From a virus: a DNA stretch of 32,233 nucleotides. The notes below the pieces were generated by a model. The model did no database searches. It saw only the letters and a program-made list of their open reading frames with translations, and was not told where the DNA came from. Positions within the stretch are counted from its first letter, which is position 1; every line of letters begins with the position of its first letter. Of the stretch, positions 3,783-19,256 are shown piece by piece. The stretch covers positions 1-32,233 of the IMG/VR virus record IMGVR_UViG_3300033571_021620. One strand, given 5' to 3'. The position numbers were made by a program, and so were the translations under genes.

Positions 3783-4493
3783 ATGGCTCGCGGCTCTGTA
3801 AGTTTCAATATCTCCGTTGCCCAGCAGCAGCTCAAGGCTGTGGAAAATACCCTTAAGCAGGCACAACAGCAGATCGACCCAACGTTTGTTCAGGCCGCAA
3901 CGCAGCTTGTTCAGTCTGAAGTGTATGGGGGACCACAGAGCCTTGCGGGCCTAGCCTCGCAGGCGGCCCCAGTAGACACCGGAGCGCTGGCCCATGGTCT
4001 TGAGGGGCCATACAACAGCGAGGCATTCCCCAAGCGACGACGATCTCAGAGCGTTTTTTCTGTTACCCCGGCCGGTAAGGGGAAGGTTGCCGCGATCATG
4101 GTCAATTACGGTACAGACCCGCAGCAGGGGAGCTCGAATGGCGGCGAACATCCATACGTTGGATACGTAAAGCAGGACTTTCTCGGAGCGGCAATGCGCT
4201 CATTCCGCTCTCGTCTCAACGTAATTGGCAATGCGCTCTCCCAGGCAATCGCCTACGAAGTCACGCAGTCCCTCCGCTCTGCTGCGCAAGGAGCAGCAAG
4301 CTATGCTGCCGGGAAGTTGAAGCTCAGCCCCAAGGCCATCGCCGCACTAGCCGCAAAATTTGGTGCGGCACCTGTGGGCACAGCAAGCGGTCGTGGCTTT
4401 AAGTCGCGTAAGCTTGCATCGCTAAGCCAAGCGCATTACAAGAAAATCATGCGCCAGCGTCGGTACAAGCTTCGCAAAGCCGGACTAGCCTAA
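3783..4493 (+). CDS. Neck / tail-completion protein (HK97 gp10-like)
   Basis: A 236-residue protein whose central motif APVDTGAL (about residues 62-69), after a helical N-terminus rich in Gln and Ala, is the hallmark of the HK97 gp10-like family of minor neck proteins. A second typical part is the HPYVGYVKQDFLGAAMRS stretch around residues 121-138, which resembles the conserved 'hPf..pA......' region. The C-terminal 70 residues are long for the family, Lys/Arg-rich and probably nucleic-acid or partner contacting. The ATG follows the previous stop codon directly with only a weak GAGCGG upstream, so translation probably depends on coupling. Its last 9 bases overlap the end of the opposing metallophosphoesterase gene. 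Confidence 0.72.
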   Translation: MARGSVSFNISVAQQQLKAVENTLKQAQQQIDPTFVQAATQLVQSEVYGGPQSLAGLASQAAPVDTGALAHGLEGPYNSEAFPKRRRSQSVFSVTPAGKGKVAAIMVNYGTDPQQGSSNGGEHPYVGYVKQDFLGAAMRSFRSRLNVIGNALSQAIAYEVTQSLRSAAQGAASYAAGKLKLSPKAIAALAAKFGAAPVGTASGRGFKSRKLASLSQAHYKKIMRQRRYKLRKAGLA

Positions 4494-5762
4494 ACGGATC
4501 AGGTACTCCGCTGTTACGCCGCTCTCATGCTGAAACAACAACCACTGGCACGGTTCACCAGCAGAAGCAAGCTGCTCCTGAGCGTACGTGTTTGAACTTT
4601 CCGTAGATCCCCCGCTCCAGTGCGTAATGCCGTTCAGATACATCCGCGTTGGGGTGTGGAAGTGACCGGCAGCGCTGTAATCAAACCGCGCAACGGTCAT
4701 ATTCCATCCCTGCAGCTTCTTGCCGAACCCATACCAGGGGAAACCGGCAAAGCCGCCGGACACCTGATCGCCATGGAACAAGAACCACGTCTTACCCTTA
4801 ACGACATCGGTTGCAAACCACGCACGTTCGCCGGCAGAGATAGTCTCTACCCACTCAACGTTCTTCTGCTCCTTCAACGCCATCGAGGCAATGCGGTACA
4901 TCATGGCGTCGGCGTTGGATTCCGGGTGGAACGTGCCGCGACGACCAAGGCGGCCATGATTGCCAATGACGCCAACGACCCGCACCTTCTCGAAGACGGA
5001 TGCCAGGCGGCGAACAAGGTTAGCAAGGATCTCGCCACCATGGAAAATCTGATTGTACAGCGAGGCATCAATGAGGTGCGCCTGACCAGGGAAAATGTCT
5101 TCCCCTTCAACCAGGTCGCCCAGCAGATACACGCGGAGCTCCTTGACCGGATGCGCCGCACGCTGGATTTCAACGAGGCGCTCTACCTTATCGGAAAGTG
5201 ACTTGATGCGCTCTGCGGCGACATCGGAATTGTACGTCGGCGTAATCTTTCCGAGCTGCCAATCCGAAAGCAGCAGAATGGCCGTCTCATCGTCGGCCTT
5301 GCGCTTGTCTGCCTTTGCTGGAGCAACCGGTGCAATGTTCATTGCTGCCGAAGCCTCTCGCGCTGCCTGATAGACAGCCTCGACAAGCTCGTTTCGGTCT
5401 CGCTCCTTATCTTCCAGTTTCTTGAGTGCCTTGCGGTGGGCGGACTTGAGCCGCTCAATCTCACCGATTGCCTCGTATGAGGCAACTTCTTTTTCGGCAA
5501 CTTCCTTCACGACTTCCACCTTTCCGCGAACAGACGCAATGGCCTCTCGCAATGTTCCTGGGATAATCTCCGGAGAACGGCCGTTGAAGGCCCTTCGGTC
5601 GATAAACGACTTTTCTCCCCGGAGTAGCTTGTTCCTCATAATGTTATACCCATTGATCGAACGATCTGGGTATGCCTTGCTGAACTCGCTGTACTCCATG
5701 TTCAGAGCGTCCTGCTTTTCCGCAGCGGACCACGGCCGCAGGTACTGATACTGTCCTGGCAT
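4485..5762 (-). CDS. Metallophosphoesterase with N-terminal helix-turn-helix-like domain
   Basis: A 425-residue protein on the strand opposite to the structural operon. Residues 9-50 resemble a Myb/HTH-type module (a WSAAEKQDAL helix followed by AYPDRSINGYN and a basic helix). Residues 80-140 are a charged coiled coil. Residues 160-425 carry the five calcineurin-like phosphoesterase blocks in order: SDWQLGK (D167, Q169), GDLVEG (D216), GNHGR (N268, H269), FHGD (H330) and AGHFH (H367, H369). The first block has Gln where DxH is usual; this Gln variant occurs, as I recall, in phage members. The domain predicts a two-metal phosphodiesterase or phosphatase, possibly nucleic-acid directed. A GGAGG site lies 4 bases before the ATG. 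It is the second gene of a minus-strand pair and overlaps the neck gene by 9 bases tail-to-tail. The substrate is unknown. Confidence 0.82.
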   Translation of the reverse strand: MPGQYQYLRPWSAAEKQDALNMEYSEFSKAYPDRSINGYNIMRNKLLRGEKSFIDRRAFNGRSPEIIPGTLREAIASVRGKVEVVKEVAEKEVASYEAIGEIERLKSAHRKALKKLEDKERDRNELVEAVYQAAREASAAMNIAPVAPAKADKRKADDETAILLLSDWQLGKITPTYNSDVAAERIKSLSDKVERLVEIQRAAHPVKELRVYLLGDLVEGEDIFPGQAHLIDASLYNQIFHGGEILANLVRRLASVFEKVRVVGVIGNHGRLGRRGTFHPESNADAMMYRIASMALKEQKNVEWVETISAGERAWFATDVVKGKTWFLFHGDQVSGGFAGFPWYGFGKKLQGWNMTVARFDYSAAGHFHTPTRMYLNGITHWSGGSTESSNTYAQEQLASAGEPCQWLLFQHESGVTAEYLIRLG

Positions 5763-6024: not shown

Positions 6025-6456
6025 ATGATGGACATGTCAAGAAGTACAATCTTGGGCATGTATGGCATCTACGAAGCCTTTTTCTCCGCGTTGAGCTCCG
6101 ATACCCAGCTTCAGACGCTGCTGGGCGGTACTGCCACGGATAAAAAGGTCTACCCCGTTTACCACCCCGGAAAGTCCAGTTTGCCCTCCATCCGCGTGGC
6201 CATTTATGGCGGCGGAAGCGATGTGGCCCTGGGCGTTGACCGCCCCATTGTGGACGTGCTGATCGTGAGTAAAAACGGGGCCGCAGAGATGAATACTATT
6301 GGCAACCGCGTGGATGTGGTGCTTAATAGGAAACGCCTCTCGGGGCCGAACGGGACAGTCTTGCATTTGTCGCATAAGGTGACAGAGCAGGACATCTACG
6401 ACGACACGAGTCTGGAATACCGGCGAGTGATCCGGTATAGCGTCATCAAGACATAG
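6025..6456 (+). CDS. Tail terminator protein
   Basis: A protein of up to 143 residues located between the connector genes and the tail tube, the invariable place of the tail terminator, which caps the tube and joins it to the neck. The sequence fits: an N-terminal helix (MYGIYEAFFSALSSD), a Leu-Leu-Gly turn, KVYPVYHPG followed by PSIRVAIYGGG, the strand DVLIVSK, a helix NTIGNRVDVVLN, and closing strands ending RRVIRYSVIK. This is the alpha/beta layout of lambda gpU-like and DUF3168-like terminators. The start is uncertain: in-frame ATGs occur at 6025, 6028, 6034 and 6058 and none has a clear ribosome site. The 6058 start (MYGIY) matches the family N-terminus best. Confidence 0.68.
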   Translation: MMDMSRSTILGMYGIYEAFFSALSSDTQLQTLLGGTATDKKVYPVYHPGKSSLPSIRVAIYGGGSDVALGVDRPIVDVLIVSKNGAAEMNTIGNRVDVVLNRKRLSGPNGTVLHLSHKVTEQDIYDDTSLEYRRVIRYSVIKT

Positions 6457-6467
6457 GAGAAAACACA

Positions 6468-7130
6468 ATGCTTACACTTGGATCCGGTGTAGTCAAGGTG
6501 GCGTTCTGGAAGTCCGGAGCCGTCATCAACGCTGCTGCACCTTACTTTACTACTACCTCCGGATACGGCAACACGGGCGAGCTCGTGACTGTCGGTGAGA
6601 TCGGTGGCGATGTCGAGTTCGACATCAACTTCCAGGAGCGAGAGTTCTACGGCCAGTCGAACTTCCCGATTGCTAAGGCGTTCTTCGGCGGCAAGGCCGA
6701 TATTCGCGCTCGTGGCGTCGAGATTAACTGGGACAACGTCAAGAACCTCTTCCACGTTTCGCTCGGCGAGGGCACGAACCTCGACTCGACCGCGTATGGC
6801 TACGCCCATGACGACTTCACCGGTGGTTCCTACTCGGTGAACTTCGATCCAGACGGCGGCCGCCCGAACAGCACCATCAGCAACGTGACGGCTCTCATGG
6901 GCCTTCCACGCCCGCTGTATGTCAAGTTCGAGCACATCCGCTCGGATGACCCGTCAAAGTCGGTGATCATTCACCTTCCAAAGGCGTATAGCATGCAGCT
7001 CATGATGCCGTTCACCCGTGAAGACATCGCCCGTCAGGACCTTGACTTCTCGGCCGTTGTGGACCGCAATTGCAAGGTTACATCTGGCTCGTCGAGCACG
7101 ACCCCTTCGGTCGTCCTCATCGAGGCCTAA
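6468..7130 (+). CDS. Major tail tube protein, copy 1
   Basis: A 220-residue protein predicted to polymerise into the tail tube. It starts MLTLGSG, and its central block (about residues 43-85) GEIGGDVEFDINFQEREF continues into GQSNFPIAKAFFGGK, followed by RARGVE. The C-terminal third contains RSDDPSKSV and PFTREDIARQD. All of these blocks recur in the next gene, so the two are paralogues. The order (terminator, tube, chaperones, tape measure) supports the tube role. An AGGAG site partly overlapping the upstream stop precedes the ATG by a suitable distance. Codon use is G/C-ending and highly biased, as for the capsid, suggesting high expression. This copy has no extra domain. Confidence 0.78.
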   Translation: MLTLGSGVVKVAFWKSGAVINAAAPYFTTTSGYGNTGELVTVGEIGGDVEFDINFQEREFYGQSNFPIAKAFFGGKADIRARGVEINWDNVKNLFHVSLGEGTNLDSTAYGYAHDDFTGGSYSVNFDPDGGRPNSTISNVTALMGLPRPLYVKFEHIRSDDPSKSVIIHLPKAYSMQLMMPFTREDIARQDLDFSAVVDRNCKVTSGSSSTTPSVVLIEA

Positions 7131-7142
7131 TAGCAGATTAGG
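7126..7142 (+). promoter_or_regulatory. Hairpin over the stop codon of tube copy 1 and the ribosome site of copy 2
   Basis: CCTAAT (7126-7131) and ATTAGG (7137-7142) form a perfect 6-bp stem with a 5-base loop. It includes the TAA stop of tube copy 1 and its 3' arm runs into the GGGGG (7141-7145) ribosome site of copy 2. Ribosomes ending copy 1 would melt it, so it could set the ratio of the two tube proteins. Confidence 0.4.
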
Positions 7143-7153
7143 GGGTCACGAAC

Positions 7154-8017
7154 ATGTTCACTCTCGGAAGTGGTCGTCTGAAGCTCGGTACGTGGCTCAA
7201 CGGCGGCCTGTATACACAGGTGTCCGGCGTGTCCGTGACCCCCTCTACTGCTAGTGGTTCCGTTCCGGCTGGCACGTACTATGTGCGTGTCGCCGGGAAG
7301 AACTCCGCTGGCGTTGCAACGCCTTCGGAGACGTATATCGTCGTCCTGAGCGCAACCGGTAAGCTTGATGTGTCCTGGACCGCCCTTACTGGCGCAACCT
7401 CCGGATACGACGTCTACGTCGGCACGGTCGACGGCTACGACTGGAAGCAGGGCTCAGTGAGCTCTGGCACAACGACACTCAGCGTTACTTCACTGGCCGA
7501 TCCGGCCGGTGCCGACCTCGCCCGCTACAAAGGACTACTTGACATCGGTGAAATTGGTGGAGACGTTGAGTTTGACATTACGTTCCAGGAACGTGAATTC
7601 TTTGGCCAATATAACTTCCCGATTGCCAAGGCTCACTTCGGTGGCAAGTCAAACATTCGCGTTCGCGGCATTGAGCTTGACCCAATGCGTTTCCAGCGAA
7701 TCTTTAGCGTTACCGGTGGAAGCAATGCAAGCACAAGCATTTATCCTGGTACTCTAAATTACAAGGAAACCATTAACTTCGGCACTGCTGCTGTCAATCC
7801 TCTTGACCTGTCAATGCTCCGCAACCGCCCGGTTCGCGCCGTTTTTACTCATACCCGCTCTGACGACCCGTCGAAGACGGTGGCGATCACGGCCTACAAG
7901 GCGTGCATTTACCAGCACAACATCCCATTCACGCGCGAGGACATCATCAAGGTTGATCTTGAGCTCAACCTGCAGTATGATTCCAGCACGGCGCAGATTG
8001 TGTCGATTGCAGCCTAA
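7154..8017 (+). CDS. Major tail tube protein, copy 2, with inserted Ig/FN3-like domain
   Basis: A 287-residue paralogue of the preceding tube protein. It begins MFTLGSGRLKLGTW, then carries an insertion of about 90-100 residues (about 25-125: TYYVRVAGKNSAG, LDVSWTALTGATSGYDVYVG, TTTLSVTSL), which has the strand pattern of an Ig/FN3 sandwich. It then returns to the tube core at GEIGGDVEFD (about 132). By my count 35 of 43 residues in the GEIGG...RGVE/RGIE block are identical to copy 1, and RSDDPSK and PFTREDI are also kept. DNA of the shared block differs at many third positions, so the duplication is old and the protein is under selection. Tubes with surface Ig-like domains are known in lambda (gpV), and SPP1 mixes FN3-bearing and bare subunits. 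A mixed tube here is inferred. Confidence 0.78.
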   Translation: MFTLGSGRLKLGTWLNGGLYTQVSGVSVTPSTASGSVPAGTYYVRVAGKNSAGVATPSETYIVVLSATGKLDVSWTALTGATSGYDVYVGTVDGYDWKQGSVSSGTTTLSVTSLADPAGADLARYKGLLDIGEIGGDVEFDITFQEREFFGQYNFPIAKAHFGGKSNIRVRGIELDPMRFQRIFSVTGGSNASTSIYPGTLNYKETINFGTAAVNPLDLSMLRNRPVRAVFTHTRSDDPSKTVAITAYKACIYQHNIPFTREDIIKVDLELNLQYDSSTAQIVSIAA

Positions 8018-8063: not shown

Positions 8064-8351
8064 ATGGCGAACCTTAATGAGGTGCGCGCTGCGCGCGTAC
8101 TCAACCTCAATGATCTCGCTGACATTGAGGAGAAGTTTGGTGGCCTTGACAAGGTTGACCTGACACGTTTCACTGTCCTTCGCTACATTCTTTGGCTTGT
8201 CCTTCGTAAGGATGATCCCAAGGTCGATGAGCGCGCGGTTGGCGAGCGATTCTCGCTTGACACCATGCGCGAAGAGATCGATAAGGTGCTCCGTTCAAGC
8301 GGCCTCATTGGCAACGGTGAAGAGGGCATCGAGGGAAAAGCGGAGGCGTAA
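8064..8351 (+). CDS. Tail assembly chaperone, short form (gpG-like)
   Basis: A 95-residue protein between the tube and tape-measure genes, the constant site of the lambda G/T-type chaperone that coats the tape measure during tail assembly. It is helical: residues 1-45 include LNLNDLADIEEKFGGLDKVD, and then a hydrophobic helix RYILWLVLRKDD and a charged helix up to RSSGLIGNGEEGIEGKAEA. An AAGGAG site lies 5 bases before the ATG. Near its end, in frame, is the GGGAAAA heptamer that allows a -1 shift into the following frame to make a longer fusion. It is shorter than lambda gpG (140 residues). The identification rests on order plus the frameshift signal rather than on sequence similarity alone. 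Confidence 0.78.
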   Translation: MANLNEVRAARVLNLNDLADIEEKFGGLDKVDLTRFTVLRYILWLVLRKDDPKVDERAVGERFSLDTMREEIDKVLRSSGLIGNGEEGIEGKAEA

Positions 8352-8380: not shown

Positions 8381-8638
8381 ATGGCGTCTTACGCAGATGC
8401 CTTTGGTTATACCCCAAGCGATTTCATGCAACTCACGCTACCCCAGCTAAACGCATTCGCAAGATACATCGAACAGCGTGATAAGGAGATGAAGGAGGGT
8501 TCGTCCTCATCTTCATCTTCGAAGAGCTCTAAGAACCGAGCGAAGTTTGCCGAAGGTAGCAAGGGAATGAGCAACATCGGCTCACTTGAGCAGATGATTT
8601 CCGTGTTCGGCAGGCCCGGTGGGCAGTCCGGCGGATGA
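8339..8638 (+). CDS. Tail assembly chaperone extension (gpT-like part of a -1 frameshift fusion)
   Basis: This frame is entered by -1 slippage at 8333-8339. The fusion joins 92 residues of the short form to 99 residues decoded here, about 191 in all. The junction reads EGK-SGGVSWSEIDWGSIM. The Trp-Ser/Trp-containing segment is typical of the T part, which contacts tube subunits in lambda-type systems. The rest holds YTPSDFMQLTLPQLNAFARYIEQ-like helices, a run of Ser (SSSSSSSKSSK) and a Gly-rich end. The ATG at 8381 with an upstream GGGGG could permit independent translation, but the hairpin 8362-8380 would mask that site. The missing start and the in-phase heptamer favour the fusion. The tape-measure gene starts 13 bases after the stop. 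Confidence 0.75.
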   Translation, partial: SGGVSWSEIDWGSIMASYADAFGYTPSDFMQLTLPQLNAFARYIEQRDKEMKEGSSSSSSSKSSKNRAKFAEGSKGMSNIGSLEQMISVFGRPGGQSGG

Positions 8639-8651
8639 GTGGGGGTTTTGA

Positions 8652-11600
8652 GTGGCTGAGGGTCAGGGCGGGAATGTCGCAAGCGTAGGTCTATCTCTAG
8701 ACTCGTCTGCGTTTAATTCTGGCGTAGCCCGCGCCCTTGCAGACATTTCCCGACTCCTCACCGGACTGCGCGAGCTTCAGGCTGCCAGCCAGAAAACCAA
8801 CCTCGGCCAACTCGGCGCTACTGGACGATCCGGAGCGGCTTCTGGCGCTTTTACCCCCGCAACATTTGCACGCGATATTCGTCGCCTTGCTATTCCGGCA
8901 ATCCGTCAGCTTGATCGCGCCGCCTCCACGTCTCCGCTACTTACCGGAAGAATGGCTCGCGGTGCCGGGTTTGACCCTGCTGCCATGGCAGCGGCAATCA
9001 ATCGCCAGACAATTCCCGCAATCCAACGCCTCAACCGAACTATGGGGAGCTTCCGCGACTCCGACTTCATGAAGGAGTTTGAGGCTGGTCGAGCCGCCAG
9101 GGAGCGCGCTCACCGAGCAATGCTGGAGCGTGAGTCCAGGATTACGCAGGAAATTGCCAAGGGAACCACTAAGCGATTGGAGCGCGAGCAGGCGCGCATG
9201 ATCCAGGCGCAGCAGGCTGAAAACCGCCGAGCGGCAGATCCAAACACCCAAGGCTCTCGACAGCTTCGTGCCGCAATTGAAATGCGCCGTCAACTTGCGG
9301 AGCAAAAGCGTTACGTTGAGGCGCACCCAACCCCAACGCAGACCCGCTATGCCGGAGGCGGAAGGGGCGGTGGCAGCCGTGAGGGTCGATGGGGTGACGT
9401 TGCCGACCTGAAAGGCATTCCAAAGGACTGGCGCAAAGTCCTTATGCAGCTTGAGCAGCAGGGGTGGAGGATTGAGCCACGAAGTGGGGGCCATCCAGTT
9501 GCATACCCGACAAGCAAGCAATATAAGCCCATTACGTTCCCGAGCACGCCATCAGACCATCGTGACCTTCTAAACTTTATCTCGAAGGCACGACGATCTG
9601 GCGGGGTTATCAATGGTCGTGGGTACCGAGATGAGGCCGGTCCATTTGTTGAGCGACAGCGTGGATTCTATGAAGACCCGTCAACCAAGAAACCGACGCT
9701 TCGCGCCAACTATCGAATGGCTGCCCTTGAGGAACTTGTAACCTCTAACCTACCGAGCTATCCGCCGGTCATGCAACCGCGCCCTCGCGGCGTGTCTGGT
9801 GTCTCTGCGGCCGATCCTAACTCCCGGCAGCAAATTGAAAGAATGATCAAGGGCTTTGAGCGCGGCAAAGTGTTTGCCCCAAGCGCTAACCTTGAGGAAG
9901 GCCTCATTGCCACCGTGGCAAATGCTGCTGGACAGCAGTTCGTCGCATCCGGTAATGCCCGAACCATGGCGCTTCAAGCCATTGCAAAGCAAGGAACTCC
10001 GCTTCGCAACGCCATTAGCGGCTTTAGCATGGAGTACCTAAAATCAAATCCAACAGAGTTTGGCCAGGGCGAGGTTGCCGCACTTAAAAAGGCTGGAGCA
10101 TCTATTGCAAGGTCCGGCAAAACGCCAGTGCTCATCCGCGAGATTGCCGGTGGCGTAGAAGGCCTTGCTCCGCAGCGCCTTGGCCAGCTCGGTCTGCAAC
10201 TCAATGCTCGAACCGGTCTTTCTGAGAGCGAGATCGCCATTGCTGCGTCGCGCATGCTTTCTAAGGTCCCGGCAGAGGTGCTTGCCGGAGATCCTCGTAA
10301 GATTGTCGCCGCAGGAAAGGGGCCAGCATATGAGGCCCTAAAGAGCGCCCTTTCTTCGGAAGTGCTCGGTGAGCATGTTATGGGGACAAGGTACAAGGGT
10401 GCCAGCGGTGGTGTTGCATTTAAGGGCATGATGGAGCAGATGCTGTATGCACGCGCGTACGGCAATAACCCGGCAACCGCCCAAATGCTCACCGCAGCGT
10501 TCTCCGGAGAGCCCTCAGAGATGAGTTCCTCTGTCAGGGCTGCACTTGGTCGTAGCCTTGGACCACAACTACGTCTCCGCGAACGAATCAATGCTGGAGA
10601 AGTTCCGGCAGGCATGGATCCAATCTTCAACTCGCTTCCTGGAGCATTGCAACTTATGCAAAGGGCACTCGGGACCGGCGGGCAGGGGCCAGGGTGGATT
10701 ACCAACCCAGAAACACTTCGTGGAAACCCTGCCGGAGCGTTGCGTGCATTGCTTTCGCAGAAAACTATGTTTGGAGATCCGACTACAGCAATTGAGCGTC
10801 GTCTTGCCGCAAACATGCTTGCTGTCGGGCCTCAGGGTTTGTCTCCGTTCCTTTCCTCACTCGGCATGTACGGCTCCCGGGCAGAAGGTGCCCAGATGGG
10901 CATGTTCGGCGCGTCTGAGGGTGGCCTGCTGCAAGCAACTAGCAACCCACGTCAGGCTATTGCACTGGCCCAGAAGGCAGCCGCACAATACCAAGAAGCA
11001 CTAAAGACCGATCCGGCCCTGAAGGGCACCGGAAAGGCGGCCGTTACCGCCAGAGAGGCAGTGCTAACCTCCATTGTTGAGGGCGTCTATTCTGGCATGC
11101 CTGCTCAAGCTGCGGCTGTGGCGCAGAAGGTGGCAACAAGCAGCCCACAGGCTGCTGCTGTCGGCCAAGAAATTGTGCAGGGGACCGCTGCGGCTGTCAC
11201 TCAGGCTGCGGTAAATCCAAAGAGGAAGAAATTCACGTTTAAGCTTTCCGAGGAGGAGCAGGCTGCGTTCCTCAGTAAGCTTCGTGGACCAGTGGTTGCC
11301 CCCGCCTCACAGGGCGGCGGATATCAAATGTTCCCACCAGAAGAGCCAAGAACTGGGCTGCGCAGGCCAAATGCCCAGCGCATGACAGAGCTTGGTGGAT
11401 ACGGTATTTCTCCACGGGAAATCGGTGTTGCTGAGGGCAGCGTAAAGGCCCGTGCTGGTGGGTATCTGCCGTATAGCGAGTCTAGCCCACAGCGGCAAAT
11501 GCAATACAACAATCGGCTTACACGCGGCTATGCAACGTTGATGGGTGAAATCGAGGGTCACCTCGCTCAACCAGGACCAAAGTCTACCGCCGCGCTTGCA

Positions 11601-14600
11601 GCAAAAATTCCAGAGGTTGAACGTCTATACAAGGTTGCTATGGAGCGTGGCGGCCTTGGCATGGACCCAATGAACGCCCATGCAGAAGTGGTTGCCAAGG
11701 CTCGAGCAATCCTTGGACCCGTAGCCATCCCGCAGTCAGAGCCCCAGCGGCCACCAATTGTTACCGCAACGCCGGTACCGACGACACCCGAAGGAATTCC
11801 TTACATCAAGGTTCCAACTAGCGGAGAGTTGACTGAGGCCCAGATAAAAGCTGTCCAGGAGGGCCGAGCAAAGCTCTTAATGCCGCCTCCTCCACCTCGG
11901 CAAAAGACCGGAAGGAGCATTGGCGGTCCTATCCCGCCAACCAATGAGGGTTTGGCATCGCTCCTTGGCATTGGTCCGGCGCTGCAACTTGGTGCCGGAT
12001 ATCGTCCGTATCCTGGCGATCCAATGCTTGCCGCCCTTACGCGCGCTCAAGTAGAGCGACGCGCCCTCGCTCTGTCTCGTGGGCAGGTTGAGGGTCCCCT
12101 TATCGGGGCAAATCGTGGCGGCCTTGATCCGGTAACCGGTGCGTTTACTGTCAATCCGAAGATTCCAGAAGTCACCAGGATGCAAGGCGGAATGCTTCGT
12201 GCGCTTCTTACTAGCGAATCGCTGAGCGCAGCTGAAAAGGCACGACAGATCTCCCTTCTCAGCGGAAGCATTCCCGGCATGCGAGGGGTTCCAACGAGTA
12301 TCCCAGAGGGCCAGTGGCAGAAGCTTGGGAGCGGGTCATATCGCGGACCAAAAGACCTCAAGCCAGTGTACGAGTCGCTCAAGCCGCTTATTGAGCAGTA
12401 TGGTGCCGCTCGAACTATGGGCTACGTTGAACTTGCCAGGGGCTCTTCGCAAGGTTACGGGTATTGGGATCCAAAGAATAAAGGCCTGAATCTTTCTGGG
12501 CTTGAGGGACGAAGCTCTGGTGCAATCATGCGAACGTTGGTGCACGAGCTTGCGCATGGATCATTTGGCGAGGCAATGAGGACCGGCTACAAGCAGCCTG
12601 GTCAGGTTCAGATTTATGGCCCCAAGGGTGAAAGCATGGGCATGGCGCCGCATGGCGCTGCCTCTGCGCTTCTTGCCGGAGAGCCAACGAGAGTCGGCCA
12701 CCTTGATCCAAAGTTCTACGAGATGCAGGCAAGGATTCTTAAGTCCGAGGGCGGGCTTTTCTCATCGTTGCTGTTCCATAACTTTGCGCAGGGTGGGTCG
12801 CTCCCAGGTGGGCTTGGGTTGCAGGGCACAGGCCCAGAATATGGTATTGGAAAGCTCGCCGCTCAACTGACTCCACAGCTAGAAAAACTTGCCTCGCCTC
12901 AGCAGCTTCTAGCCGCTCAGGCATTTACAAAGACTATGAACACCTTGGTAGGTGGTATTGAAGGATTTGCTAAGGGCAGGGGCAACCTCGAGCAGACCAG
13001 CAACGGCATCGCAAAGGCGTTCAGAACGCTTGGAGAATCGTCCTCTGAATTCAAGCCAGAGTTTTTGCTCGGCGGTGCCGCCCGGCTATCCAACTTCATC
13101 CGGCAAAATGGCCAAGAAGGCCTGGCAAAGATGGCCCCAGAGCAGTTGCGTGCAGGAATCGTCAACTCCATCCTGTCTACCACGACCGGCGCACTCGGTC
13201 CGGGTCGGTTGCTGGGGCCAATGTCGCAGGTCAGTGGTGTTCATGGGCAGATCTCAGAGTTCCTCAAAAATGCCAGCGAAATGGAGAAGGGCTACCTGGC
13301 CATGGCGATCAACCCGCAGGCCTTTGTTAAGGAGCCCGGGGCAAAGCCATTCTACCAGCGTGGAGATGTAGATCATCTACAGAAGGCTCAGGAAATCCTC
13401 TCAAACGTTGCGCAGGAGGCAGAACGCGCTGCAAGCGTCATCCCAGCAGCAACAAATGTTGCCGTTACGCGACGTGCCGGAATGCAGCTTCCTGTTATCA
13501 ATCGAGGACGCATGCTTCCGGCAGAACACTCGGTTGTTGTTTCCGGGCAGCGCTATGGGGCCGGTGGTGGTCAGTTTGTAGAAACAACTAATAGCGCCGG
13601 AGAGACTGTTCGGCAATTTGTTCCTGCTCAGCGCCTCCCAGAGGTAACCCCTGTACAGGGACCTATGTCTGGCTCCGGAGCCCTTGTCGTCTACGACCCC
13701 CGCGTTGCTGCTCAATACGAGCAGAATAATCCACGCTTTGCCGGAAGGCCATATGGCGGTCGAGCAGAGACTCAACGCTTTACTCCGAATGCTGCTCTTC
13801 TCAACGAGGCATACATGCGCACGCTCAGCTACGGAGGACAGGGCTTCTTCGGTCGTGTAGGGTACGAGCGCCTGACAATGCCGGCACAAGAAATTGCAAG
13901 CCGGTACGCCGGATTCCGTGGCGCTGTTGGTCAGGCCGCATACAACAGCCCCCTCAGCCCAATTGGCGGCATGATGAGCCAGTTCCGACAGGCAACAGGA
14001 ACATATGCCGAGGCCGAAATGGGAAAGCAGCAGCTTCGCGCGGCGGCCCGCCAGCAATATCAAGGTCAAGTTGCCCAGGCTGATGCATTTGCCAATGCCC
14101 AGACTCGATTGAATCGTGTTCTCGGTACTGGCACCGTAAACTTCCGAGAGCTTGGCAAGGTAATGAGCGAGGTCGGAAACGGCTTTACTTCTGGAGCTCT
14201 TTCTTCGCTGAGGTTCGCTGCAAACCTTGCCATTGGACAGCAGGCAGTGTTTGCGTTCGTCGGAATGATCAACCACCTCCGTGGCGGTATTATCGAGTTC
14301 AACGCAAAACTTGAGGCCGCTGCCGTAGGGTTTAACACACTCTTCCGAAACGCTGGATATACCGTCGAAGATGCGAGCGAGAAGACCAAGGCATTCATTG
14401 GCGTTCTTCGTGACTTTGCCAACGTAACAAACTTCCGATTCGGCGACCTTGAGACCGCAGCCCTCCGCATGAAGGCATTCGGTTTCGAGGTGGATAACGT
14501 TACCGCTGCCGCAAAGAACCAGATGCCAATCCTTGAGGAAATTCCTAATCCGTGGGCAAAACTGACCGGAGAGGCTAAGAGCTTCCGTGGCGCCCTCGTC

Positions 14601-17600
14601 AACATCGGCGATGCAGTTGCGGCACTCGGCGCAGAAGACGATAAACTCCGCCGTGTCACGTACGCCCTTGGCCAGATGAACTCAGCTGGTCGTGTCTATC
14701 AAAACGACATGATGCAGCTGGCAAACGCTGGTATTGCCGGATATGACATTCTTGCTAAGGCAGTTAAGAAGCAACTCGAGAATGACCCAGAGCTCATGCG
14801 CGCAAATAAGGCCATCTATAACAAGTTGCTAAACCCAAGAACTGCCGTAGAGGAGATCCGCAAACTTGCCCGCGTTGGACGACTCGTTGGACCAGAGGCC
14901 GTGCAGGCCATTCTCCAGGGCCTTGGGCAGCAGTACGGCGGCGGCATGAAGGCGTTCTCCCGTACCTTCCAAGGAGCCATGACAACTCTTGCGGATACGT
15001 CGCAATCCCTTATTGCTACCGCGTTCAAGCCACTCTTCGATGTCACCCGAGATCTTGTCGTTCAGCTTGCCGACGCCTTCCAAACATCTGAGTGGACGGG
15101 CAAGGCGGATAATGCCGCCAAGGTCATTCAGAAGGTTGCGGAAGCGCTCAGGTCAATGATCCCTGGAACGGCAGACACGATTATGAAGGTCCTTGGTAGC
15201 TTCTTTGAAACCTTTGCAAAACTTGGAAGCTCCCTTGGCAGTACCACAAATGGCTTGGGTAGCTTTGTTAATAACTTTGCTGCAGGAGTAAAGACCATTG
15301 GAGATCTTCTTCAAAACAGCGTGATCCGCAACCTTTTGGTGGCCGGCGTTACCGCAAAACTCGTTATGGGAACAATTGCTTCCAACCCTCTCCTGGCAAC
15401 CATTGGACTCATTGTGTCTTCCATTGGGGCAATCAGTAAGGCTATTGAGACAAACGCCTTTGGCTTTGGCGACCTTGCGGCAAAGGTGCAACCTGAATTT
15501 GACAAGATCCTTGCAAATATCAGCGGAAACTTCATCCCGGGAGTAACGAGCGGCCTCTCCGACGGCCTGGGCGCGTTCTTTGCCATCATGGGGGCCTTCA
15601 TCCGCGCAGTCACTCCGCTATTGGTCGCAATCCTGGACATCATTAGTAACGTTGGGTCTGCTATCAAGCCATTTGCCAGCGTTCTTGGCGTTGCGCTTGC
15701 GGCATTTGTTGGCAAGAAAGTCCTGATCGACGGCATGGCTGCCGCCATGGGTAAGTTTGCCGCCGCAACTGGCGCTGCCGTCGGCAGGGTCACATCGCTT
15801 AAGGAAAAGATGGCGCTGTATCAGGCGTTTGGAACCACCGGAAGGTACTACGGTGGCGACAAGCTAATGGCGATGCAAACTATGCAGCTGGCCAATGGTC
15901 AAAGTCGAGCAGTTCTTGCCCCTGCCGAGCAGGGTGGAATTGGTATCGGCGGACCGACTGCCGTTCGCGCAGCCCTTGCCCTGGCGAATCAATTTGCCCT
16001 CCTGCAGACCGGAGCCCCACTCCAGACTGCCGGAGTCGTTCCGCCGCAAACGGTCCTTGACAAAAAGACCGGCCGCCAGGTCGCCAACCCAATGTATCAA
16101 CAGTTCCTTAATACCGCCGCATTTAATCCGCAGACAACTCTGGCCCAGTATCAAGCAATTCGCGGCGCACGAAAAGAAGAAATTATGCAGGAGTTGGCAA
16201 TTCGAAGGAACAAGTCGCTGACCCCAGAACAGCGCCAGGCTGCTCTAGCAAATGTGTCAACTGCCGGACGCCAGGCATATCGACAATTCCGTGCAGATAC
16301 CGGAGGAGCTGGTTCTTCAAGCATGAAGGCCCTTGAGGCGTCATTTGCCTCAATGAGCCAGGGGATGATTGCCCAGCTCGGTCAGTTTATGGCCAAGATT
16401 CGATCCACTGGCCTCAGCTTGGAAACACTAAAGACTATTGCCAAGGCGGTTGGATCCCGACTTGCTGGCATGGCAACTGCTGCCATGGGCATGGGCATGC
16501 TCTTTAGCGCTATCGGCGGAGCTTTGAATGTTAAGGAGCTTCAAGCAGTTGGAGATACGCTCACAACGATTGGGTTTGCAACAACAGGTTTGACCATGAT
16601 GTTTAACGCCTTGACTGTAGCTGTTGGCGCTGCCGCGCTGCCGCTTATGGCGCTTATGCTTGCAATTGGCGGCCTTATCGCGTTCATCAGTGCCAGCACA
16701 ACTACCGAGCAGGATAAGAAAGGCGCAAAGCAAGTAAGCGAGATTATGGATCTCCGTGATCAGATGGTTGCAATGTACGGAGAGGAAGAGGCAAAGCGCA
16801 GGTTCCCGGACTACTTCCCAGAAAATCTTACGTTGCCGGAGAAAAAGTTGCGCATGGCCCTTCCCGGTGAAACCCCAGACTCTTATGATTGGATTAACAA
16901 TATCGCATTGAAACTTGATTATGACCCAAAGGATCTTGCCGCTGTCCGAAGTCAGTTCGGATTTACCGATGAGGATTTTGCAAAGACAAAAGCCTATTTT
17001 GAGATGATGAATACCGATACCGGTCGAATTCTCTCCTTGTTCCAGGAAGGAAAAACGGCCGAGCAGATTGCTGAGATTACCGGTCTACCAATTGATCGAA
17101 TCAAGTTGCAGCTAAAGGAATTCTACGAGACAACTGGTTCTGACAATAAGGACTTTATTGCCAAGGTGCTTAGCGATAGCCTTGATGCAACCGGCGCTGC
17201 CCTGAAAGAAGCGCAGGAGGCTTACGAAAAGGCAATGGAGCCGTTCCAGAAGAACCTTAGCCGCCTGACTTCTCGAACCCAGGAAGTCATGCAGGCGCTC
17301 TTTGAGAGCGAGAAGAAGGCCCTGGAAGATGAGAAGAAGGCTGCGCTAGAAAATACGTTGGTAATGTACAACGGCGAGCAGGTCCGACTTGGCGTGCTGC
17401 AGCAGCAATATGATGCCATGAAGCTTCAGCGCGAAGAAATGGACCGCATGGCCGAACTTGAGAAACAGCGCACAGCTGCCGCAGAGGCCGCGCTCAATAT
17501 CTTTGACGCCAGTGTTGATCCGCTTGAGCGAGCTCGAGCGGCTCGAGAGTCCGCTCGAGATCTTTTCAATCAAGTTGGAACGTCAAGGCTTGACGAGATG

Positions 17601-19256
17601 CAGCGGGCGATTACCGCCGGCCAGGGGAATGTCGCCTATACAGAAACCGAGGCATTCTACAACGAGAAGATGGATGCCCTACAAAAGGATCAGGCCGAGC
17701 GAATGCGCACGGTCCAGGAGCAAATCGACGACTTGATGCAGAAGATCAAGGAAGGCAAGATTGGGACCGCCGCCGCACAGCAGCAGTTCAAGGATATCTT
17801 TGCGCAAGCCGGTCTTGACCTCGACGTTGCCCAGACACAAGGGTACTCGTTTATGTCAGCCTTTGGCGATGGCTTCATGGATGCGATGAACACAAATATT
17901 AAGGGCGTATTCTCCAAGCTGCCTGGACTTATCATGAAGGCGTTGGAAATGGTCAAGCAGGACAAGCTGTATCAGCAGGCCCTTGACGCCTATAACGCCA
18001 TCGTCACGATGGGTGACAAGATTACTGGCAAGGAATACAAGTCTAAGTATCTGCAGCCGCGCCTTGCTGGTTTGAACACTCTCTACAAAGATGCCGTTAA
18101 GTACCTTACCAGTGGCGAGGGCGTAAAGGCTGCCGGTGGCCTTGATAAGGCGCAAGCCATGATGGCCACACTGCTCAAGAAGAAGATCGAACTGGAAAAC
18201 ATGATCTCGGCAACTAGCGATACGGCTGTTATTGACAAGTCACTTGCATTGGCTGGAGACTCCTCATATCGCAGTGACATTATGGGTATCCAGTTGCCCG
18301 GCATGGGAAATCGCTCGCTTGTCGACTACCTCAGGCTTTACATGGGCTACGCTTCTCGTGACCGCGATAATTACATGAACAATCCGTATCTTGCCGGTGG
18401 CGCGGCTGGCGGTACAATCACGACTGCCGGTCAGTTCATGGTGGGCGAGCGCGGGCCGGAGATGATTGAAGTTGGGCCAAACGGCATTCGCGTCGTCCCA
18501 AACCACAAGCTTCCGTCCTGGCTGCGCTCGTCTGCCGGGGCTCTTGGCGCTGTCAATATGGGTCTGGGTGGCTATGCCTTTGGCACTGGTTCGGGCGACT
18601 CCGGAATGCGTGGACTGAAGTTTGACCCTAAACACATTAACCCGGAACACATTAGAAAATATGGCAACGTGTCAATGGCCGGAACCTGGCAGTCTGCCCT
18701 TGGCATGCTATTGATGCGTGCCGGGGCACCTATTGCCGCCCTTGCGTCAAGGGCCGGTAACGGACTTACTCGTGGAATGGAGTGGATGATTGGACCAGGA
18801 CCACTTGGCAAGATGGCCGATAAGATTGTATCACTTGGCAGTAGCATCAATAATATTGATCCAGAAAATCTTGGACCAAAAATGAAGTTAATTAGCACGC
18901 TCATGAAACCGCAAATGGACATGATGGCATTTGCGCAAGACGTTGGGTATACCAAGTATATGTCTACTGATTTCTTGAAAACTATGGCAGCTGCTGGTGG
19001 CACAATCGGCCTCACCGGGTTAGAAGCACAAGGCTTGATGGGTGCCCCTGGGTTCCTCATGAATCTTCTCAATGGTGGCCCACGATCAGTAACGCCACCA
19101 AACGTGCATGCACACCCATCTCGATCACCAATTAGTGGTACAGTGAACATTCACAACCCGCAACTCAACTCTGCGGCCGACATTGACCGACTCGCCGAGC
19201 GCGTTGCGGAGGCTCAAGTGCGAGCACTTCGAAACTCCGGCTATGTAAAGAGGTAA
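8652..19256 (+). CDS. Giant tape measure protein, 3534 residues, with embedded HicA-like and zincin-like domains
   Basis: The tape measure sets tail length and is ejected ahead of the DNA. At 3534 residues it occupies a third of the window. GTG is the best start, 13 bases after the chaperone stop with GGGGG six bases upstream. Residues 1-220 are helical. About 252-316 resemble HicA (GWRIEPRSGGHPVAY, TFPSTPSDHR). About 1240-1370 carry HELAH (1298-1302) and PHGA (His1334), like a SprT-type zincin. About 1820-2150 are the recognisable tape-measure core (LGQMNSAGRVYQNDMMQLAN, then GYDILAKA). Hydrophobic spans lie near 2222-2263, 2299-2356 and 2602-2683. An HTH-like segment lies near 2793-2826, a coiled coil near 2843-2970, and a typical end motif GQFMVGERGPEMIEVG near 3260. 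The core and end motifs make the role secure; the enzyme-like insertions are inferred from motifs. Confidence 0.88.
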   Translation: MAEGQGGNVASVGLSLDSSAFNSGVARALADISRLLTGLRELQAASQKTNLGQLGATGRSGAASGAFTPATFARDIRRLAIPAIRQLDRAASTSPLLTGRMARGAGFDPAAMAAAINRQTIPAIQRLNRTMGSFRDSDFMKEFEAGRAARERAHRAMLERESRITQEIAKGTTKRLEREQARMIQAQQAENRRAADPNTQGSRQLRAAIEMRRQLAEQKRYVEAHPTPTQTRYAGGGRGGGSREGRWGDVADLKGIPKDWRKVLMQLEQQGWRIEPRSGGHPVAYPTSKQYKPITFPSTPSDHRDLLNFISKARRSGGVINGRGYRDEAGPFVERQRGFYEDPSTKKPTLRANYRMAALEELVTSNLPSYPPVMQPRPRGVSGVSAADPNSRQQIERMIKGFERGKVFAPSANLEEGLIATVANAAGQQFVASGNARTMALQAIAKQGTPLRNAISGFSMEYLKSNPTEFGQGEVAALKKAGASIARSGKTPVLIREIAGGVEGLAPQRLGQLGLQLNARTGLSESEIAIAASRMLSKVPAEVLAGDPRKIVAAGKGPAYEALKSALSSEVLGEHVMGTRYKGASGGVAFKGMMEQMLYARAYGNNPATAQMLTAAFSGEPSEMSSSVRAALGRSLGPQLRLRERINAGEVPAGMDPIFNSLPGALQLMQRALGTGGQGPGWITNPETLRGNPAGALRALLSQKTMFGDPTTAIERRLAANMLAVGPQGLSPFLSSLGMYGSRAEGAQMGMFGASEGGLLQATSNPRQAIALAQKAAAQYQEALKTDPALKGTGKAAVTAREAVLTSIVEGVYSGMPAQAAAVAQKVATSSPQAAAVGQEIVQGTAAAVTQAAVNPKRKKFTFKLSEEEQAAFLSKLRGPVVAPASQGGGYQMFPPEEPRTGLRRPNAQRMTELGGYGISPREIGVAEGSVKARAGGYLPYSESSPQRQMQYNNRLTRGYATLMGEIEGHLAQPGPKSTAALAAKIPEVERLYKVAMERGGLGMDPMNAHAEVVAKARAILGPVAIPQSEPQRPPIVTATPVPTTPEGIPYIKVPTSGELTEAQIKAVQEGRAKLLMPPPPPRQKTGRSIGGPIPPTNEGLASLLGIGPALQLGAGYRPYPGDPMLAALTRAQVERRALALSRGQVEGPLIGANRGGLDPVTGAFTVNPKIPEVTRMQGGMLRALLTSESLSAAEKARQISLLSGSIPGMRGVPTSIPEGQWQKLGSGSYRGPKDLKPVYESLKPLIEQYGAARTMGYVELARGSSQGYGYWDPKNKGLNLSGLEGRSSGAIMRTLVHELAHGSFGEAMRTGYKQPGQVQIYGPKGESMGMAPHGAASALLAGEPTRVGHLDPKFYEMQARILKSEGGLFSSLLFHNFAQGGSLPGGLGLQGTGPEYGIGKLAAQLTPQLEKLASPQQLLAAQAFTKTMNTLVGGIEGFAKGRGNLEQTSNGIAKAFRTLGESSSEFKPEFLLGGAARLSNFIRQNGQEGLAKMAPEQLRAGIVNSILSTTTGALGPGRLLGPMSQVSGVHGQISEFLKNASEMEKGYLAMAINPQAFVKEPGAKPFYQRGDVDHLQKAQEILSNVAQEAERAASVIPAATNVAVTRRAGMQLPVINRGRMLPAEHSVVVSGQRYGAGGGQFVETTNSAGETVRQFVPAQRLPEVTPVQGPMSGSGALVVYDPRVAAQYEQNNPRFAGRPYGGRAETQRFTPNAALLNEAYMRTLSYGGQGFFGRVGYERLTMPAQEIASRYAGFRGAVGQAAYNSPLSPIGGMMSQFRQATGTYAEAEMGKQQLRAAARQQYQGQVAQADAFANAQTRLNRVLGTGTVNFRELGKVMSEVGNGFTSGALSSLRFAANLAIGQQAVFAFVGMINHLRGGIIEFNAKLEAAAVGFNTLFRNAGYTVEDASEKTKAFIGVLRDFANVTNFRFGDLETAALRMKAFGFEVDNVTAAAKNQMPILEEIPNPWAKLTGEAKSFRGALVNIGDAVAALGAEDDKLRRVTYALGQMNSAGRVYQNDMMQLANAGIAGYDILAKAVKKQLENDPELMRANKAIYNKLLNPRTAVEEIRKLARVGRLVGPEAVQAILQGLGQQYGGGMKAFSRTFQGAMTTLADTSQSLIATAFKPLFDVTRDLVVQLADAFQTSEWTGKADNAAKVIQKVAEALRSMIPGTADTIMKVLGSFFETFAKLGSSLGSTTNGLGSFVNNFAAGVKTIGDLLQNSVIRNLLVAGVTAKLVMGTIASNPLLATIGLIVSSIGAISKAIETNAFGFGDLAAKVQPEFDKILANISGNFIPGVTSGLSDGLGAFFAIMGAFIRAVTPLLVAILDIISNVGSAIKPFASVLGVALAAFVGKKVLIDGMAAAMGKFAAATGAAVGRVTSLKEKMALYQAFGTTGRYYGGDKLMAMQTMQLANGQSRAVLAPAEQGGIGIGGPTAVRAALALANQFALLQTGAPLQTAGVVPPQTVLDKKTGRQVANPMYQQFLNTAAFNPQTTLAQYQAIRGARKEEIMQELAIRRNKSLTPEQRQAALANVSTAGRQAYRQFRADTGGAGSSSMKALEASFASMSQGMIAQLGQFMAKIRSTGLSLETLKTIAKAVGSRLAGMATAAMGMGMLFSAIGGALNVKELQAVGDTLTTIGFATTGLTMMFNALTVAVGAAALPLMALMLAIGGLIAFISASTTTEQDKKGAKQVSEIMDLRDQMVAMYGEEEAKRRFPDYFPENLTLPEKKLRMALPGETPDSYDWINNIALKLDYDPKDLAAVRSQFGFTDEDFAKTKAYFEMMNTDTGRILSLFQEGKTAEQIAEITGLPIDRIKLQLKEFYETTGSDNKDFIAKVLSDSLDATGAALKEAQEAYEKAMEPFQKNLSRLTSRTQEVMQALFESEKKALEDEKKAALENTLVMYNGEQVRLGVLQQQYDAMKLQREEMDRMAELEKQRTAAAEAALNIFDASVDPLERARAARESARDLFNQVGTSRLDEMQRAITAGQGNVAYTETEAFYNEKMDALQKDQAERMRTVQEQIDDLMQKIKEGKIGTAAAQQQFKDIFAQAGLDLDVAQTQGYSFMSAFGDGFMDAMNTNIKGVFSKLPGLIMKALEMVKQDKLYQQALDAYNAIVTMGDKITGKEYKSKYLQPRLAGLNTLYKDAVKYLTSGEGVKAAGGLDKAQAMMATLLKKKIELENMISATSDTAVIDKSLALAGDSSYRSDIMGIQLPGMGNRSLVDYLRLYMGYASRDRDNYMNNPYLAGGAAGGTITTAGQFMVGERGPEMIEVGPNGIRVVPNHKLPSWLRSSAGALGAVNMGLGGYAFGTGSGDSGMRGLKFDPKHINPEHIRKYGNVSMAGTWQSALGMLLMRAGAPIAALASRAGNGLTRGMEWMIGPGPLGKMADKIVSLGSSINNIDPENLGPKMKLISTLMKPQMDMMAFAQDVGYTKYMSTDFLKTMAAAGGTIGLTGLEAQGLMGAPGFLMNLLNGGPRSVTPPNVHAHPSRSPISGTVNIHNPQLNSAADIDRLAERVAEAQVRALRNSGYVKR

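Follow-up and report, generated by a model that had tools for sequence, protein, structure and literature searches.

Tandem tail-tube-type paralogues in a phage tail cassette, the second with an inserted FN3-type domain

The window analysed here spans the 32,233 bases of an IMG/VR virus record and contains two complete open reading frames in tandem, copy 1 and copy 2, separated by 23 nt and each preceded by a Shine-Dalgarno-like sequence (Table 1). Both genes also occur at 100% identity on a 78,442-base contig. An initial annotation of the sequence had proposed that the two proteins derive from a gene duplication, with 35 identities in a block of 43 residues and with the motifs RSDDPSK and PFTREDI in common. 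All of this stood up: the count is exact when the block is started at residue 43 of copy 1 and residue 132 of copy 2, both motifs were found in both copies, BLASTP aligns the proteins with 69 identities in 161 positions (43%, E=3e-39), and their local alignment score of 307 lies far beyond the scores of shuffled sequences (34 +/- 5, maximum 62, n=300). In copy 1, the block comprises the predicted strand 2, the strand 2-3 loop, and strand 3. Because 15 of the 35 identical residues are encoded by different codons in the two genes, the pair goes back to an old duplication rather than to an artefact of assembly.

Table 1. Features of the tail region, with positions in the window
Feature	Position	Strand	Description
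Probable tail completion/terminator gene	6025..6456	+	143 aa, directly 5' of copy 1
Copy 1	6468..7130	+	predicted bare tail-tube protein, 220 aa, ATG 6468 to stop 7130
Conserved block, copy 1	6594..6722	+	residues 43-85; 35/43 identical to copy 2
Copy 2	7154..8017	+	predicted tail-tube paralogue with inserted FN3-type domain, 287 aa, ATG 7154 to stop 8017, probably accessory
FN3-type domain	7214..7498	+	copy 2 residues 21-115; AlphaFold2 model, Pfam fn3, titin profile match
Conserved block, copy 2	7547..7675	+	residues 132-174
Tail assembly chaperone (G-like)	8064..8351	+	95 aa; PHROG 2115 tail protein, E=3.8e-6
GGGAAAA slippery heptamer	8333..8339	+	-1 frameshift (G/GT type), in frame; -1 frame open for 101 aa
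T-part of chaperone	8381..8638	+	open -1 frame
Tape measure protein	8652..19256	+	3534 aa; Pfam TMP_3, E=8.8e-11

Copy 2 had also been described as carrying an Ig/FN3-like insertion of 90-100 extra residues near its N-terminus, rather than a C-terminal addition. The nature and the place of the insertion were confirmed, whereas its length was slightly overstated: ~87 residues are extra at the site, the additional segment lying between residue ~21 and ~125, and the whole protein is 67 residues longer than copy 1. In the AlphaFold2 model, residues 21-115 fold with confidence into a sandwich of seven strands (pLDDT mostly ~84-96). Pfam fn3 matches 13/13 copy-2 homologues, all of them under the curated cut-off (best E=0.0023), and a profile of the insert recovers titin FN3 domains (E=1.4e-7). 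The domain is placed after the first core strand, between strands 1 and 2. In the tail tube of lambda, the strand 1-2 loop touches the Ig domain of the neighbouring subunit and faces the outer side (PMC8718954), and by analogy it is plausible that the FN3-type domain of copy 2 projects outward from the tube surface.

The two genes lie in the order tail completion, tube, G/GT chaperones, and tape measure, which is that of the standard siphophage tail cassette. The 143-aa gene upstream of copy 1 shows a weak match to Pfam Tail_completion_gp17 (E=0.038 over residues 18-140) and is found at the same place in relatives. The slippery heptamer is kept in every intact chaperone gene checked among the relatives; two chaperone ORFs listed without it end before the heptamer region. 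The TMP_3 match of the tape measure scores 42.3 bits against a cut-off of 41. This protein also contains a zinc-peptidase-like motif, HELAH, at positions 12543-12557 (residue 1298), a region for which Pfam gave no peptidase match. It should be mentioned that the plus-strand head-tail cassette encloses an exonuclease/metallophosphoesterase gene on the minus strand (4485-5762), and that relatives likewise have a gene of this type, in differing subtypes, on the minus strand there. The nearest named matches of the exonuclease are in Streptomyces phage Dagobah and Actinomycetia phage DSL-LC01, and these are the sole pointer, a hint at most, to the host.

As to the proteins themselves, the AlphaFold2 model of copy 2, built with 13 sequences, has a mean pLDDT of 72, with a moderately confident core in which the loops 144-163 and 186-221 fall below 50. 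The model fits the tube-type beta-sandwich with one helix. With Foldseek, it matches the tail tube of T5 (9iny), Bxb1 (9d94_J, probability 1.00), and Douge (8zdj_S), the last from a structure containing the Douge tube protein gp13 (PMC13033339), as well as the major tail protein of SH-Ab15497 and Hcp. Its matches in a set of predicted viral proteins are major tail proteins, the top one being from Arthrobacter phage Sergei (E=4.5e-8). The best E-values are moderate and the TM-scores low (~0.2-0.5), with a core of medium confidence, and the matches are good evidence, not proof, that copy 2 has a tube-type fold. Copy 1 modelled alone gave a poor result (pLDDT 39), so its assignment as a tube protein comes from its homology to copy 2 and from its context. 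With these qualifications, gene order and fold matches agree with the tail-tube identity initially put forward. Neither copy matches a Pfam tube family, and no sequence profile linked the core to a named tube family; the only PHROG hits were to phrog_8234, of unknown function (E=2.7e-7 at best, with the copy-1 family), and to phrog_2175, annotated as 'protein with Ig domain' (E=3e-4 at best). The absence from curated families does not contradict the fold, tube proteins being very diverse in sequence.

Searches of IMG/VR yielded about 57 contigs with this tube family. Copy 1 is present in all of them, and it is followed by copy 2 in 21, which belong to four lineages (the window clade, L023/L025, L029-L031, and L091/L092/L099). 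In all four, copy 2 is directly behind copy 1 and the FN3-type domain is at the same site. The other contigs, about 36, have copy 1 alone, a few of them ending soon past it; in 15 single-copy contigs searched whole, up to 91 kb and most of them fragments, there is no second copy. Because many relatives carry only copy 1, this protein appears able to build the tube without copy 2, and copy 2, judging from its distribution, is accessory and dispensable at the level of the lineage. Outside this set, neither copy gave a tblastn match among 50,697 phage records, the most diverged copy-1 homologues gave none either, and a single scan across 84,980 prokaryote genomes revealed no prophage relative. 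We also considered whether copy 2 goes with long tails, and rejected this: the tape measure is 1410-3549 aa in genomes with copy 2 and 1627-5542 aa in those without. Across this phage group (the window and L125-L144), the tape measure ORFs range from 1410 to 5542 aa, the longest (5112-5542 aa) being those of L135, L136, and L138; if all of this length served as ruler, these phages would have some of the longest phage tails.

A phylogeny of the tube proteins of relatives had been named at the outset as a check on the pair. In a maximum-likelihood tree of the core columns, with the FN3-type domain left out, the copy-2 proteins form a single clade (100/99), and every protein from a single-copy contig groups with copy 1. 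The single clade rules out repeated independent duplication; on this tree, copy 2 arose once. On the unrooted tree, the two-gene state requires at least four changes, which may be losses or horizontal gains of copy 2. Region 39-97 alone fails to recover the copy-2 clade, a result compatible with parallel change in that loop or with gene conversion.

Several observations in relatives concern the insert itself. In two contigs (L023 5646-6701 and L025 2359-3414), copy 2 is 351 aa long and contains a further ~75 residues after the FN3-type domain at the same site; with this second insert, the strand 1-2 position behaves as an acceptor site. A 301-aa protein in three viral contigs that are otherwise unrelated to the window (L040 2438-3343, L041, and L042) carries the same FN3 subfamily, with ~48% identity to the copy-2 domain, so the domain moves between phage proteins. 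Domains of the copy-2 type in other proteins of the single-copy relatives were limited to weak matches in the gene that follows the tape measure, as in the large proteins of L135 (16753 onwards) and L136 (3-2543, minus strand).

There are also signs that the two copies act together. The segment most conserved between them is residues 55-75 (18/21 in the window), in the predicted strand 2-3 loop, which makes inter-ring contacts in known tubes (PMC8718954). In a pairing test on the four lineages, for which the smallest possible p is 1/24, pairing each copy 1 with the copy 2 of its own genome gave the most identities (rank 1 of 24), whether residues 55-97 or the entire core were compared. Columns 58 (R/K), 73 (F/Y), 82, 83, and 163 have the same lineage-specific residue in both copies in all four lineages. 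Since copy 2 is one old clade, such shared residues point to parallel change or gene conversion, and both would be expected if the two proteins belonged to a common assembly, of which the pattern is suggestive.

The median dN/dS is 0.071 for the core of copy 2, 0.141 for the FN3-type domain, and 0.120 for copy 1, and the dN of the FN3-type domain is about twice that of the copy-2 core. Copy 2 is under purifying selection. These values bear on the idea that copy 2 is not a tube subunit, but either a separate tail-associated protein or a decaying duplicate. Its dispensability at the lineage level would suit both forms of this idea. However, the core dN/dS rules out the decaying duplicate, and the strong purifying selection, the conservation of the interface loop, the fixed position in the tail operon, and the tube-type fold speak against the idea as a whole, which we consider improbable.

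Codon adaptation was calculated with the major capsid gene (MCP) of each genome as the reference, in two of the four lineages, where most records are close relatives. In the window, copy 1 has a CAI of 0.68 and ranks highest after the MCP. Copy 1 scores 0.64-0.74 and copy 2 0.49-0.66, against 0.36-0.48 for the terminator and about 0.36-0.52 for the tape measure. Every two-copy record measured shows the same order, with copy 1 first, copy 2 next, and the terminator, adaptor, and tape measure below both. The chaperone, which is not a virion protein, has a codon adaptation similar to that of copy 2. As a loose proxy for copy number, the order suggests that copy 1 is the most abundant and copy 2 intermediate.

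The codon values weigh on two further arrangements of the tube. One is an obligate hetero-hexamer, in which copies 1 and 2 would alternate 3+3 in every ring as an unfused version of T5 pb6. It would account for the T5 tail tube being among the structural matches and for the co-variation of the copies at interface-like columns, but a 1:1 ratio does not sit with a codon adaptation that is clearly higher in copy 1 than in copy 2, and copy 1 appears to suffice in close relatives; we give it little chance. The other is a zoned tube, with copy 2 making up a terminal ring or a few such rings, as a tip-near initiator or close to the neck. Tail genes often duplicate into end proteins, and gp54 and gp48 of T4 are thought to be tube-like initiators; copy 2, for its part, is a distinct and faster-diverging paralogue with conserved features of its own. 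Against this, its codon adaptation exceeds that of the one-ring proteins (terminator and adaptor), and one would expect an initiator or a neck ring to be indispensable, whereas many close relatives lack copy 2 and have no obvious replacement. A zoned tube therefore seems rather unlikely.

Expression of copy 2 is probably coupled to that of its neighbours. In the two-copy genomes, 10-47 nt follow the tube gene with no comparable hairpin, whereas single-copy relatives (L058, L063, L069, L073, L088, L094, and L118) have a gap of 131-221 nt and a strong GC-rich hairpin after it. The short gaps and the lack of such a hairpin suggest that copy 2 is cotranscribed with copy 1 and the chaperones, and the hairpin and long gap, seen only in single-copy relatives, that the control of transcription differs with copy number.

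A close parallel is Bacillus phage SPP1, which has bare and FN3-bearing subunits, gp17.1 and gp17.1*, in one phage, the FN3 form being dispensable. There, the two major tail proteins occur in a ratio of 3:1 and the C-terminal FN3 is added through a translational frameshift (PMC8718954). In the window, by contrast, two genes have diverged after duplication and the domain follows strand 1; the tube gene does not end in an SPP1-type frameshift, copy 2 having its own start, ribosome binding site, and complete core. Two related major-tail genes are known from DJ, EL, and other actinobacteriophage clusters (PMC12859696, PMC11080557; Camille, MH153800), and the role of the second gene in the Gordonia DJ phages was left open by the authors (PMC12859696). 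In clusters of this type, however, a gene separates the two copies. The pair of FortCran resembles ours in its 43% identity and in the extra residues of one protein, but these are 51 aa at the C-terminus. No homology to Camille gp17, gp19, or gp20 was found with hhalign (probability <1%), in a comparison of low sensitivity because the Camille profiles were of single sequences.

Decorated tube proteins encoded by a single gene offer other parallels. Gp15 of Arthrobacter phage Wayne (Korravirus) is a tube protein of Pfam Phage_TTP_17 with an internal FN3 that is related to that of copy 2 (profile i-E 4e-12), but its gene is the only tube gene, the domain is at residues ~121-213, after the helix, and the core is unrelated in sequence. 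The YSD1 tube protein has an Ig-like domain within it, domain2, plus a C-terminal Ig (PMC8718954, PMC9022992); this is again one gene, with the insertion between helix 1 and strand 4 and the domain folded onto the neighbouring subunit. T5 pb6 combines a duplicated tube domain with one Ig-like domain, but the duplication is fused in one polypeptide, the Ig is C-terminal, and the rings are trimeric. Thus, the novelty implied in the initial annotation does not extend to the single elements, which have precedents in SPP1, the DJ phages, and Wayne; it does hold for their combination and for the insertion site, since we found no precedent, in the collections and open papers searched, for a tandem tube paralogue with an FN3-type domain after strand 1 and a patchy presence among relatives.

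The explanation that we favour, and regard as probable though by no means certain, is that copy 2 provides accessory subunits co-assembled in smaller numbers into a tube made mainly of copy 1. Copy 1 would be the main tail-tube protein and could build the tube unaided. Copy 2 would be an old paralogue that has kept the ring and stacking interfaces, with its FN3-type domain between core strands 1 and 2; translated beside copy 1, it would enter the same tube as many subunits, fewer than those of copy 1. We infer that the domain projects from the tube surface and contacts the host surface weakly during adsorption, probably through glycans; the Ig-like domains of the Douge tube bind mycobacterial glycans (PMC13033339). 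Copies 1 and 2 would then be a two-gene equivalent of gp17.1/gp17.1*. A more far-reaching reading, which we entertain only as a tentative and rather doubtful one, is that the strand 1-2 loop is a modular display site and that a decorated second subunit is added or dropped as a cassette, giving a heteromeric tube in which the two gene products co-evolve at the ring-stacking loop; at its boldest, this reading would place both subunits in defined positions, in zones or alternating.

On the favoured explanation of an accessory, co-assembled copy 2, the gene pair looks like a modular way of decorating the tail, and it would represent a third route, besides frameshifting and C-terminal fusion, by which one phage can have both bare and decorated subunits. 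Why many phages carry Ig-like domains on their tail tubes, and how the number of these domains is controlled, is unsettled (PMC9022992). Because the relatives described here exist with and without a separate gene for the decorated subunit, they can be compared, or the gene deleted, with the main tube gene undisturbed, and the role and placement of tube decoration may thereby become directly testable.
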